Assembly: GCA_027297085.1 (NCBI GenBank)
Contig: JAPUIL010000282.1
Span: 1-11,628 of the forward strand
Length of the DNA stretch: 11,628 bases
Direction: 5' to 3'
Source of the DNA: Verrucomicrobiota bacterium
GTDB lineage: Bacteria; Verrucomicrobiota; Verrucomicrobiia; Opitutales; UBA2995
The translations under genes and the position numbers were made by a program. The number at the start of each line of letters is the position of its first letter. The stretch's first letter is position 1. Under the pieces are notes generated by a model, which saw nothing but the letters and a program-made list of their open reading frames with translations, was not told where the DNA came from and searched no databases. Below, piece by piece: positions 2,521-6,116 of the stretch.

Positions 2521-2556
2521 CCAACCTTCGCCTCAATAGGCTACGGCTTGGCACGC
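2521..2556 (+). repeat. Solo copy of structured hairpin repeat (copy C)
   Basis: This lies in the gap between the receptor and the TPR gene. It can be read as CCAA-CC, then TTC, then GCCT-CAAT-AGGC, then TAC, then GG-c-TTGG. That is an outer stem, a 3x3 internal loop, a 4-bp inner stem and a 4-base loop, with one bulged C at 2547. The flanks CCTTCGC and GCTACGG, and the TGGCACGC that follows, match the two repeats around the GIY-YIG gene (4860-4904 and 5243-5283). The inner stem differs from theirs by a compensated change. It is shorter and more diverged than those copies, so membership is likely but not certain. Confidence 0.45.
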
Positions 2557-2562
2557 GCGATT

Positions 2563-2613
2563 GCCCTACCATGTTTTGACCCGAATGGTAGGGCCACTGC
2601 GTCTCCGCAGTGC
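2563..2613. repeat. Double-hairpin palindromic (REP-like) element between convergent genes
   Basis: Two adjacent perfect stems are visible. The first is GCCCTACCAT (2563-2572) with ATGGTAGGGC (2585-2594), 10 bp with a 12-base loop. The second is CACTGCG (2595-2601) with CGCAGTG (2606-2612), 7 bp with the loop TCTC. They abut with no spacer, a layout common for dispersed REP-type elements. It sits between convergent genes and has no long T-run, so it could act as a weak bidirectional terminator or an mRNA 3' end stabiliser. No second copy is present in this window. Confidence 0.6.
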
Positions 2614-4374: not shown

Positions 4375-4743
4375 ATTGATGATTTCGAGTTTAGGATAAT
4401 TCGCCTCCCTTGACCAGTAGGATCTGCACGGTAATGGCACCTCTTCCGTACCGTAAGAAGTTGGATAAAAAAACCCAAGGTTGGACTAAATCGATTCCCA
4501 GCCGATAAAATCGATCACCTTTTGCCAGTGGATAGTATATACAAACCGAAGAAGGCCGTGGGCCAGTCAGCATAAGTCGCGATGAAGAGCGCTTGTATTG
4601 TTATCGTTAACCCCTCAGCGCCAGTGGTCACATCGAACCGTTGACTACGATCCAAAGCACTTTGATCAATTTCATGGTACAGACCCGCATATTTCAACTT
4701 TACCAGGTCAGAAATGAGCTTCGTTAGATCTGCTTTTCAGTGC

Positions 4744-4773
4744 TTGACGACCCCTCATTTTATTACCACTTTA
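4744..4773 (+). promoter_or_regulatory. Possible promoter of tRNA-Gln
   Basis: TTGACG at 4744-4749 is a good -35 match, 41 bases before the tRNA 5' end. The -10 is poor: ACTTTA (4768-4773) at 18-base spacing is the best I see. Position relative to the tRNA is right for a stable-RNA promoter. Confidence 0.3.
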
Positions 4774-4789
4774 CCCAATCTTTTGTTGT

Positions 4790-4864
4790 AGCCCGATGGT
4801 GTAATTGGCAACACAGATGGTTTTGGTCCATCCATTCTAGGTTCGAGTCCTAGTCGGGCTGCCA
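4790..4864 (+). tRNA. tRNA-Gln (anticodon TTG), CCA encoded
   Basis: A full cloverleaf can be drawn. The acceptor AGCCCGA (4790-4796) pairs with TCGGGCT (4854-4860). The D stem is GTGT/ACAC (4799-4802 and 4811-4814) with a loop containing TTGG. The anticodon stem is GATGG/CCATC with loop TTTTGGT, giving anticodon TTG at 4823-4825. The variable loop has four bases. The T stem is CTAGG/CCTAG with loop TTCGAGT. The discriminator base is G4861 and CCA is encoded at 4862-4864. All stems are perfect and a G discriminator fits bacterial tRNA-Gln. It reads CAA codons, and CAG by wobble. The 3' end is shared with the hairpin repeat that begins the GIY-YIG module. Confidence 0.95.
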
Positions 4865-4904
4865 TCCTTCGCTTTCACTTTGTTCAAGCTTCGGATGGCA
4901 CGCC
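4860..4904 (+). repeat. Structured hairpin repeat, copy A, fused to the tRNA 3' end
   Basis: The outer stem TGCCATCC (4860-4867) / GGATGGCA (4893-4900) is 8 bp. A symmetric TTC/TTC internal loop comes next (4868-4870 and 4890-4892), with the inner stem GCTT/AAGC (4871-4874 and 4886-4889) partly sharing bases with it, and an 11-base loop. The left outer arm uses the last two acceptor-side bases and the CCA of tRNA-Gln. Bases 4865-4904 match copy B (5243-5283) closely: the first 16 bases are identical, then there is one single-base length difference and a few substitutions. Confidence 0.65.
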
Positions 4905-4944
4905 AAGAAGCGATAAAGCAGCACACATGATTCGATTACAACTT

Positions 4945-4982
4945 AGCGAAGGATGCCCTTCGTAGCTTCAGCGGAGTAGGGC
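4945..4982 (+). repeat. Palindromic leader of the GIY-YIG gene, carries its ribosome binding site
   Basis: Two alternative foldings overlap. One is CGAAGG (4947-4952) / CCTTCG (4957-4962) with loop ATGC. The other is GCCCT (4955-4959) / AGGGC (4978-4982), which encloses the GGAG (4973-4976) that serves as the Shine-Dalgarno 8 bases before the ATG. In addition, AGCGAAGGATG (4945-4955) is an exact 11-base reverse complement of 4863-4873 at the start of copy A. These competing pairings could hide or expose the ribosome binding site. Confidence 0.55.
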
Positions 4983-4984
4983 CT

Positions 4985-5230
4985 ATGTATTACGTCTATC
5001 GATTAACAACCACCCTGGATCCAAAACGCCACTATACCGGCTTCACAACGGATCTCTCGAATAGATTCAAAGCTCACAACAAAGGAAGTAATAAACCTAC
5101 GGCAACTTACCGACCCTGGAAGCTGGTTTTCTACGCCGCGTTTGAGGATAAAGAATCCGCCCTGGATCTTGAAAGATATCTGAAAACCGGTTCCGGAAAG
5201 GCTTTTGCAAGGAAACGGCTTTGGAAATAA
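4985..5230 (+). CDS. Small GIY-YIG nuclease-superfamily protein
   Basis: 81 residues, the usual size for stand-alone single-domain GIY-YIG proteins of the UvrC-N/YhbQ type. The hallmarks are in order: YVY at residues 3-5 (the GIY element), YTG at 17-19 (the YIG element) with Tyr5 and Tyr17, Arg27 and His31 in the DLSNRFKAHN helix, and Glu63 in the LERYLK helix, the expected metal-binding Glu. So the active site appears complete. There is no added DNA-binding domain, unlike phage homing endonucleases. The ATG at 4985 follows GGAG with good spacing. The gene sits 120 bases after tRNA-Gln and is bracketed by two copies of a hairpin repeat, with a palindrome supplying its ribosome binding site. 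Short proteins of this kind occur in many copies in some bacterial genomes, and their role is not settled. The family is secure. A link to repeat mobility or processing is inference. Confidence 0.88.
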   Translation: MYYVYRLTTTLDPKRHYTGFTTDLSNRFKAHNKGSNKPTATYRPWKLVFYAAFEDKESALDLERYLKTGSGKAFARKRLWK

Positions 5231-5242
5231 CGCCGGTGAGAT

Positions 5243-5283
5243 TCCTTCGCTTTCACTTCGCAAAAGCTTTCGGATGGCACACC
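5243..5283 (+). repeat. Structured hairpin repeat, copy B, after the GIY-YIG gene
   Basis: This is a direct repeat of 4865-4904, about 378 bases downstream and 12 bases after the GIY-YIG stop. The inner stem is GCTTT (5249-5253) / AAAGC (5263-5267) with a 9-base loop. The outer stem is reduced to TCC/GGA (5243-5245 and 5272-5274), because the base context left of it is not a tRNA end. A short CGGTG (5234-5238) / CACCG (5280-5284) pair brackets the element. Confidence 0.6.
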
Positions 5284-5344
5284 GTAAAATACAGTCAGAG
5301 CAAAGGAAGTTGCTTAAAGCTTTTGTTTTTCAACGATTGACGTC

Positions 5345-5370
5345 CTCGTAGGGATTCACCTACAAGAAGG
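5345..5370 (+). promoter_or_regulatory. Hairpin next to the pyrH ribosome binding site
   Basis: CTCGTAGG (5345-5352) pairs with CCTACAAG (5359-5366) around the loop GATTCA, 8 bp with one C/A mismatch. The right arm runs into AGAAGG (5365-5370), the Shine-Dalgarno 5 bases before the pyrH ATG. The fold would cover the first bases of the ribosome binding site. It may be a translational control element or another palindromic repeat. TTGACG at 5337-5342 resembles a -35 box, but any matching -10 would fall on the hairpin. Confidence 0.4.
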
Positions 5371-5375
5371 CTTTA

Positions 5376-6116
5376 ATGCAATCTGACACTCCCGCGAAAC
5401 GCGAATTGAAGTATAAACGCATCATTCTGAAGCTGAGTGGTGAAGTATTAAAAAACCCGGAAACGGGGGATCCGATCGATCCGGACGTCCTGATGCGGAT
5501 CTGCAAACAGCTGAAGGAAATCTGGGATTTTGGAATGGAAATCGGCGTTGTGGTGGGGGGTGGGAACATATTCCGTGGCCTTCAGGGCGAAGGCAAAGGT
5601 ATAGCCCGGACGACTGGAGACTACATGGGCATGCTGGCTACGGTAATAAATTCCATGGCCCTGATGGATTGCCTGGAAAAACTGGGAGTTGTGACGCGTG
5701 TTCTCTCGGCCATCCGCATGGATGAAGTGGCGGAACCCTTCGTTCTCCGCAGGGCTACCCGGCACCTCGAGCGTGGGCGACTTGTCATATTCGGAGCCGG
5801 CACCGGAAACCCGTATTTCTCAACGGATACAACTGCCGCTCTCCGTGCCAATGAGGTTCAGGCTGAGATCATTTTAAAAGCCACCAAAGTGGACGGCATC
5901 TACGATAAGGATCCCATGAAGTACGCGGATGCTAAAAAGTACGACGAGCTCACCTACATGGAGTGTTTAGCTCAACGATTAAACGTCATGGATTCCACAG
6001 CTTTCTCGCTTTGTATGGATAATAATGTTCCCATTCTTGTGATTGACCTCAACGATCCCAGCGCGATCAGAAAAGCGGTTACGGGAGAATCTATCGGAAC
6101 CCTCGTCCACGAATAA
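5376..6116 (+). CDS. pyrH: UMP kinase (uridylate kinase)
   Basis: 246 residues, normal for bacterial PyrH. It phosphorylates UMP to UDP with ATP in the cytoplasm, in pyrimidine nucleotide synthesis, and is a hexameric amino-acid-kinase-fold enzyme. Visible family motifs are LKLSGEVL near the N-terminus (phosphate-binding Lys), [27 protein letters not shown] (UMP site), [35 protein letters not shown] and the conserved [14 protein letters not shown] near the C-terminus. The ATG at 5376 has the Shine-Dalgarno AGAAGG 5 bases upstream. A 16-residue N-terminal tail ([14 protein letters not shown]) precedes the core. It is followed by frr after 24 bases, the classical pairing, so the two are very likely co-transcribed. 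The hairpin before the start may modulate translation. Confidence 0.97.

Follow-up and report, generated by a model that had tools for sequence, protein, structure and literature searches.

A small gene for a GIY-YIG nuclease and the short quasi-palindromic repeat that precedes it, here called R, recur in many bacteria as a unit of the form CCA–R–GIY-YIG–stop, and the comparison of sequences shows that this unit has a preference for the ends of tRNA and tmRNA genes. R and the gene together are probably a minimal mobile element that settles at the CCA end of these RNA genes, and we infer that the protein acts on R. The window, i.e., the whole stretch of 11,628 nucleotides that was analysed, is a single contig (C204) from a fragmented MAG (G000; 4.85 Mb, 849 contigs, 76% complete). 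The layout noticed in a first-pass annotation of this DNA is real and recurrent, while the interpretation offered there, a nuclease with a hairpin repeat arranged like RAYT transposases with REP elements, is partly supported.

Parts of the element and its protein

The features concerned are the following:

4790..4864, + strand: tRNA-Gln gene (TTG anticodon) with encoded CCA, the host site of the element (ARAGORN; Rfam tRNA 4790-4861)
4862..4982, + strand: full copy of repeat R, whose first three bases are the CCA of the tRNA (covariance model R1)
4862..4898, + strand: hairpin a-b of R, with a CCATCC/GGATGG stem, a TTC/TTC internal loop and inner GC pairs
4946..4955, + strand: segment c of R, GCGAAGGATG, the reverse complement of CATCCTTCGC and an alternative partner for a
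4956..4981, + strand: hairpin d of R (CCC..GGG), which has the plan of a-b on the opposite strand and holds a GGAG before the gene
4985..5230, + strand: GIY-YIG nuclease gene, 81 aa, ATG start (ORF list, Pfam, homologue alignment)
5243..5280, + strand: partial second copy of R, the left half without CCA (direct-repeat comparison)
2521..2594, + strand: diverged R on its own, with neither a tRNA nor a GIY-YIG gene (model match E=0.0019; not a seed)

From CCA to stop codon the element measures 369 bp, and the only other ORF of at least 60 aa within it is an overlapping antisense frame. The hairpin is adjacent to the tRNA-Gln gene, as the first-pass annotation had it, but does not merely begin there, since its first stem (CCATCC at 4862-4867 paired with GGATGG at 4893-4898, as read from the sequence) uses the CCA itself. 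The layout of a-b is CCATCC-TTC-GC...GC-TTC-GGATGG, and as single-stranded DNA the segment 4861-4905 folds better than all of 200 shuffled versions (z -3.8). R at 4862-4982, itself one of the seeds of model R1, scores 74.3 bits with that model; its quasi-palindromic character is reflected in a match of 33.5 bits on the opposite strand. Two direct copies of R had been described as flanking the gene. The second, at 5243-5280, is indeed a direct repeat (16 and 12 nt exact), but of the left part of R only; it lacks the CCA, folds no better than chance (z -0.42) and overlaps a weak R1 match (5253-5405, 14.9 bits). The related repeat seen earlier at 2521-2556 is real and extends to 2594 (18.7 bits, E=0.0019), and no GIY-YIG or tRNA call overlaps it. 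An inverted repeat at 2556-2601 (17 nt arms, 82%), behind ORF 63-2492, overlaps the d hairpin of this solo copy. That a palindrome supplies the ribosome binding site of the gene is plausible in the window, where GGAG at 4973-4976 precedes the start codon, but cannot be general because in the best-80 loci the distance from the end of R to the gene match has a median of 30 bp and reaches 553 bp. In five congeners the tRNA-Gln gene is divergent from pyrH, and in the window tRNA-Gln, R and the nuclease gene are co-oriented with it; the block 4400-5375 seems to be inverted in G000, or misassembled.

The 81-aa product is a GIY-YIG domain (PF01541, E=1e-16), as claimed from the start. The Pfam domain spans residues 1-72 of the protein, which has no separate DNA-binding domain; apart from GIY-YIG, Pfam gives T5orf172 under its cut-off, and no Y1 (HUH) transposase domain was found in this search. 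The closest PDB sequences are UPF0213 BH0048 (1zg2, E=1.6e-10) and SLX1 (7cq2, E=3.8e-7), the latter a structure-specific nuclease that prefers branched DNA. In an alignment of 13 homologues Tyr17 and Glu63 are invariant and Tyr5 and Arg27 nearly so, and we take all four to be catalytic. The closest named homologue (79% identity) is annotated as Verrucomicrobia bacterium. To judge from the two closest pairs (dN 0.037/dS 0.67 and dN 0.076/dS 0.74, i.e., dN/dS of about 0.05 and 0.10), the protein is under purifying selection in the pairs measured. With the window protein alone as query, none of 72,556 plasmids and one of 50,697 phages were matched, the phage match being partial (63% coverage, 49% identity); the homologue profile matched two loci in IMG/VR. 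As far as seen, the element is chromosomal.

Recurrence at tRNA and tmRNA ends

The homologue set was obtained by searching the 13-homologue alignment against named genomes and keeping the best 80 of at least 554 relatives. Among these best 80, a complete tRNA (47) or tmRNA (14) gene on the same strand ends within 350 bp upstream in 61 cases, and in 68 when T-arm...CCA remnants are counted; for comparison, of the other mechanical ORFs at these loci that reach 200 aa (241 in all), a single one has a tRNA or tmRNA in that position. The RNA genes at these 80 loci bear 13 labels, 12 tRNA isotypes plus tmRNA. Seventeen phyla are represented in the 74 of the 80 records that have a named phylum, and tRNA/tmRNA-linked loci occur in 16 of them, i.e., in all but Nitrospirota. 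In the phylum of the window, 15 of 27 further loci have a tRNA or tmRNA, and six of the 12 misses have less than 500 bp of contig upstream. The same layout is found in strain genomes and in a record titled complete genome (L036, L041, L048, L086). The unit leaves the RNA gene intact and uninterrupted, as the ARAGORN call for the window's tRNA-Gln illustrates.

R accompanies the gene at most of these places and is not confined to the window, for it occurs in many genomes. Model R1 was built from 15 copies, one from the window and 14 from a list of 19 candidates pre-chosen for a pairing of a with both b and c; L039, L040, L069, L074 and L086 were left out, mostly for irregular d hairpins. With this model R is detected upstream of the gene and on the same strand in 73 of the best 80 loci (59 of the 66 that are not seeds), and 74 of 81 plus-strand matches fall within 400 bp upstream of the gene, a space of 31 kb out of 374 kb; at many sites R1 matches both strands. 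A fuzzy search, in which pairing was a condition and variety was not, recovers a CCANNN stem with its complement in 52 of 89 loci, the variants including CCAGCC/GGCTGG, CCATCC/GGATGG, CCACCC/GGGTGG, CCAGAC/GTCTGG, CCATTC/GAATGG, CCACAC/GTGTGG, CCAACC/GGTTGG and CCACCT/AGGTGG. This search replaced a strict regular expression that matched 9 of the 89 loci. The covariance model was likewise adopted because a pattern built on the exact core of the hairpin was too weak, with four places in the window's own genome against three in a reversed control.

The hairpins of R covary, as the aligned copies show: both sides change in 6 of 16 pairs, a value reached by none of 500 shuffles, and four of the six lie in hairpin d. 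The alternative a-c pairing covaries about as much as a-b, and these counts are partly circular because the seeds were chosen for clear hairpins and pairing. Such covariation is compatible with a function in DNA or in RNA and does not separate the two. Direct repeats of at least 16 nt on both sides of the gene are present in only 10 of 79 loci (none of 79 shuffles), so that the R–gene–R arrangement is a recurring by-product rather than the definition of the element. The analogy with REP and RAYT that had been drawn from it is strengthened from another side, a second GIY-YIG clade with a repeat of its own (see below), but the dominant feature is attachment to tRNA/tmRNA ends and not flanking by two copies.

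Occupied sites, empty sites and solitary repeats

Related genomes differ in the presence of the element at a given site. In six genomes of one genus the tRNA-Gln site, located via pyrH in the five congeners and read by eye, exists in empty, hairpin-only and occupied states. It is empty in G001 and G004, where a terminator-like hairpin and its T run follow the CCA; a single short hairpin is present in G005 and a rearranged one in G003, G002 has two tandem copies of R (two R1 matches) followed by a gene-start-like stretch at the contig end, and the window has R–gene–partial R. Past the CCA the congeners are too divergent for a target duplication to be read. At tRNA-Ser(GGA) the site is occupied in G002 and empty in G003. 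The two sites are taken as orthologous from their downstream flanks, which are homologous (75% over 724 bp), no match having been found between the upstream ones; G002 is longer here by about 395 bp, near the size of R plus gene. Relatives with an empty site thus exist at both tRNA genes.

The complementary observation, one unit in two different surroundings, comes from 14 close pairs of loci compared at a threshold of E 1e-3. Between L054, at a tRNA-Gln, and L089, which lacks a tRNA, 431 bp of L054 align with 87% identity, beginning 6 nt inside the tRNA end and running through the stop codon of the gene; in the rest of about 5 kb the two loci have nothing in common but a second R copy in L089. 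Two further pairs appear to point the same way more weakly: L065 and L088 (75%) have in common only the final 9 nt of tRNA-Ser and what follows up to the stop of the gene, L088 having 148 bp of contig ahead of this stretch, and in L055 and L110 (71%) the common stretch starts roughly 19 nt before the end of tRNA-Ser and includes the gene, with two further matches of 23 and 31 nt. In L071 (tRNA-Val) and L085 (tRNA-Leu), 66% identical, it starts roughly 24 nt before the end of the tRNA and again includes the gene, with one further 27-nt match. Long flanks are common to four of the 14 pairs (L060/L093, L033/L034, L032/L033 and L057/L061), which therefore represent the same site. The other six pairs share the tRNA and the gene, with or without R, save that L063/L088 gives nothing at E 1e-3. 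On the protein tree, built on few columns and with many forks left open, 28 changes of the tRNA label are counted, compared with a mean of 41 and a minimum of 36 in 300 shuffles; the element thus shows partial fidelity to its site. Since the isotype is partly conserved and four of the 14 pairs are at the same site, much of the inheritance is vertical.

R also occurs without the gene. Among the top matches from genomes of the window's order and phylum (90 loci, whose 159 matches were merged by hand into 105 copies where opposite-strand, overlapping or duplicate; two separate weak matches, L197 124-161 and L213 2187-2304, were left out), 62 of the 105 begin at a complete tRNA or tmRNA end, from 16 bp before to 6 bp after it. 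These are almost evenly divided between copies with a GIY-YIG match within 400 bp downstream (32) and copies with none (30). The remaining 43 do not abut a complete tRNA or tmRNA: 8 follow a T-loop-like motif where no complete tRNA was called, some of them perhaps tRNAs missed by ARAGORN or contig edges, and 35 lie elsewhere, two of these at contig edges. Arrays behind tRNA genes or fragments were noticed at L200, L124, L144, L121 and L264. The extra units in them start with the terminal ~20 nt of the tRNA and are joined at a CAATCC junction near the T-loop, and some of the arrays hold T-arm-like sequence such as GGGATTTGAACCC. Fragments of tRNA 3' ends had raised the suspicion of a T-loop target, a claim that is not made because the junction motif GCCAATCC belongs partly to R itself.

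At the level of whole genomes, R and the nuclease gene go together, and the repeat is thus not independent of GIY-YIG genes. Of 36 genomes including that of the window, 8 have both, 3 the gene only, 4 R only and 21 neither (Fisher p=0.0018); for 193 genomes of the phylum the corresponding numbers are 48, 35, 8 and 102 (p=7e-15), both p-values being overstated because the genomes are related and not independent. The exceptions in the larger set amount to 35 of 83 GIY-YIG genomes without an R match and 8 of 56 R genomes without a GIY-YIG match; here the R search used stricter filters, with 21 candidates scored per genome, and the GIY-YIG profile at E 1e-6 may also catch other clades. Genome sets and R positions for both tables were transcribed by hand. 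R seems to be low-copy, with at most 16 R1 matches per genome (both strands counted) among the 115 candidates scored in each genome of the smaller set; 21 were scored per genome of the larger set, and the R counts of both sets are therefore minimum values.

Mechanism, rivals and known relatives

The recurrence at many tRNA ends, together with the absence in some close relatives, makes R and its gene look like a very small mobile element, and the best reading is that of a minimal chromosomal element, homing-like or RAYT-like. Occupied and empty sites, gene-less copies of R and tandem copies are there to be seen in the genomes; the steps that would connect them are the following. Settling at the CCA end would leave the tRNA or tmRNA gene intact. 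The protein may recognize R as a hairpin or cruciform, or else the junction between CCA and R, and might then nick or break R, cleavage being the presumed activity. Repair of the break could carry copies of R, alone or together with the gene, to other tRNA ends, and subsequent loss of the gene would leave a solo R as a remnant or a non-autonomous copy, as REPINs are to RAYTs.

The main rival places the action of R at the RNA level. R would be a structured 3' trailer of the tRNA or tmRNA transcript that controls 3' maturation or GIY-YIG expression, with the CCA paired in a stem, alternative a-b and a-c folds, and a GIY-YIG protein that either acts on RNA or is a co-opted host gene. The co-orientation of R with the complete tRNA or tmRNA at whose end it starts in those 62 of 105 copies speaks for such a trailer, as does the retention of two mutually exclusive pairings of one 5' arm, in seeds chosen for both. 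We nevertheless hold it to be unlikely, given that R also sits away from tRNAs (2521-2594 in the window; the 35 copies lying elsewhere), is matched on both strands in many places and, at one and the same tRNA, occurs in some congeners and is missing from others. Moreover, tRNA is the sole Rfam family matching 4700-5400, and a known RNA family for R was rejected on that result. It is likewise rather improbable that R is a MITE-like repeat moved by another enzyme, with the GIY-YIG gene as a passenger such as a repair or defence nuclease. That some genomes carry R without a GIY-YIG match (8 of 56 R genomes, and 4 of 12 in the 36-genome set) would fit a passenger, but the unit of L054 and L089 between unrelated flanks consists of R and gene only, R lies upstream of the gene in 73 of the best 80 loci, dN/dS is low in the measured pairs and another GIY-YIG clade goes with another repeat.

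tRNA genes are the usual sites of group I introns and integrase-driven islands, and a remnant of either might be expected here; the intact tRNA, the Rfam result and the lack of a further ORF of at least 60 aa in the unit, save for the overlapping antisense frame, make this a very improbable origin. A group I intron was discarded because no conserved ribozyme core interrupting a gene was found (Rfam, tRNA-Gln), and an integrase-type island because, that antisense frame apart, the GIY-YIG gene is the only ORF of this size in the unit. Finally, a contig from a MAG in 849 pieces, 76% complete, invites the suspicion of chance or an assembly artefact, an explanation already refuted by the recurrence in L036, L041, L048 and L086, among strain genomes and a complete-genome record, and of negligible probability.

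Among known systems, the mobile element proposed here resembles RAYT/REPIN pairs in having a small enzyme gene beside short hairpin repeats, and gene-less repeats whose presence tracks the gene, in low copy number and with limited candidates scored. Like REPINs as portrayed in PMC8049555, R joins two hairpins in opposite orientation beside the gene, and different clades have different repeats. It differs in its GIY-YIG domain, where RAYTs have a Y1 (HUH) transposase, in settling at tRNA/tmRNA 3' ends, and in a copy number that seems low (at most 16 matches per genome among the candidates scored), compared with the at least 69 REPINs per E. coli genome given in PMC8049555. The free-standing GIY-YIG homing endonucleases encoded by the seg genes of T-even phages are intergenic, with SegB between tRNA genes, and their spread is consistent with double-strand-break repair, or “intronless homing”, as outlined in PMC2988022. 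The gene of the window is also intergenic and beside a tRNA, but the element is chromosomal as far as seen, and its protein is an 80-aa domain only, tied to a conserved hairpin and tRNA ends. A GIY-YIG domain with conserved residues and occupied and empty alleles at one site are found as in homing endonucleases, and a separate DNA-binding domain is not; since one defining feature of each group is thus missing, the element is filed neither there nor under RAYT/REPIN. To UPF0213 and SLX1 the likeness is that of nuclease-domain sequence; the window protein consists of this domain only (81 aa against 304 aa of the SLX1 chain), and its gene is linked with a repeat and with the ends of tRNA genes.

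Integrative elements that reside at tRNA genes use a tyrosine integrase. The element of the window has the tRNA 3' end as harbour, an intact gene and, near some copies, tRNA 3' fragments in common with them, but no integrase was found and the unit is below 0.5 kb. Searches of an open-access library gave no description of an R–GIY-YIG element at tRNA ends, and the open-access papers that hold the core GTCATTGCGAGG appear unrelated from their titles and the starts of their abstracts. Neither the enzyme class nor the general notion of a selfish nuclease is new; the pairing with a covarying hairpin at tRNA/tmRNA ends was not found described.

The second GIY-YIG clade, represented by L030, has strong matches (E below 1e-15) in exactly three of the 36 genomes, G014, G008 and G034, with weaker cross-matches in G023 and G000. 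The same three genomes hold 117, 15 and 6 copies of the exact motif TGTCATYGCGAGG, which is present once in G020 and absent from the remaining 32. This motif is the core of GTCATN(2-3)GAG repeats. GTCATN(2-3)GAG or its complement, a motif picked after inspection of the flanks, lies within 350 bp on both sides of the gene in 11 of 13 loci of this clade, compared with none of 80 first-clade loci and none of 2000 random windows from the same loci. Other associations were observed in passing. At L287-L296, GTCATTCTGAGCGAAGCGAAGAATCC-type repeats, often inverted, bound the second clade. L002 (G000:C272:5664-5894), on a contig that may be a contaminant, has another GIY-YIG gene of the window's genome, with copies of TATTTCACAGGGTA / TACCCTGTGAAATA around it in both inverted and direct orientation; this is a third type of repeat. 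L003 (G000:C802:7023-7178) is a broken third relative with an R-like hairpin CAGCCTTCGCTC...GAGCGAAGGCTG upstream. The GIY-YIG genes of L015 and L027 are accompanied by the 3' half of a tRNA and by a GAAGGCC...GGCCTTC hairpin, so that one more type of repeat is linked to tRNA; the tRNA 3' half of L027, read by eye as tRNA-Met, is duplicated.

Small GIY-YIG nucleases could even be the engines of a whole unrecognised class of mobile elements, a view to which we give somewhat less than an even chance. Each clade would have its cognate quasi-palindromic repeat, whose spread would require a nuclease directed by the hairpin but no transposase, recombinase or reverse transcriptase; one clade would live at tRNA/tmRNA ends in at least 16 named phyla and another between GTCATN(2-3)GAG repeats. 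If the mobile-element reading is true, it would provide an author and a mechanism for short palindromic repeats at bacterial tRNA ends and in intergenic regions, and would explain why small genes annotated as “GIY-YIG nuclease family” are so patchily distributed between close relatives. It would also open to experiment a case in which the spread of a hairpin is driven by a structure-specific nuclease acting alone, and the CCA end of tRNA and tmRNA genes would be a natural safe-harbour insertion point that requires no integrase.
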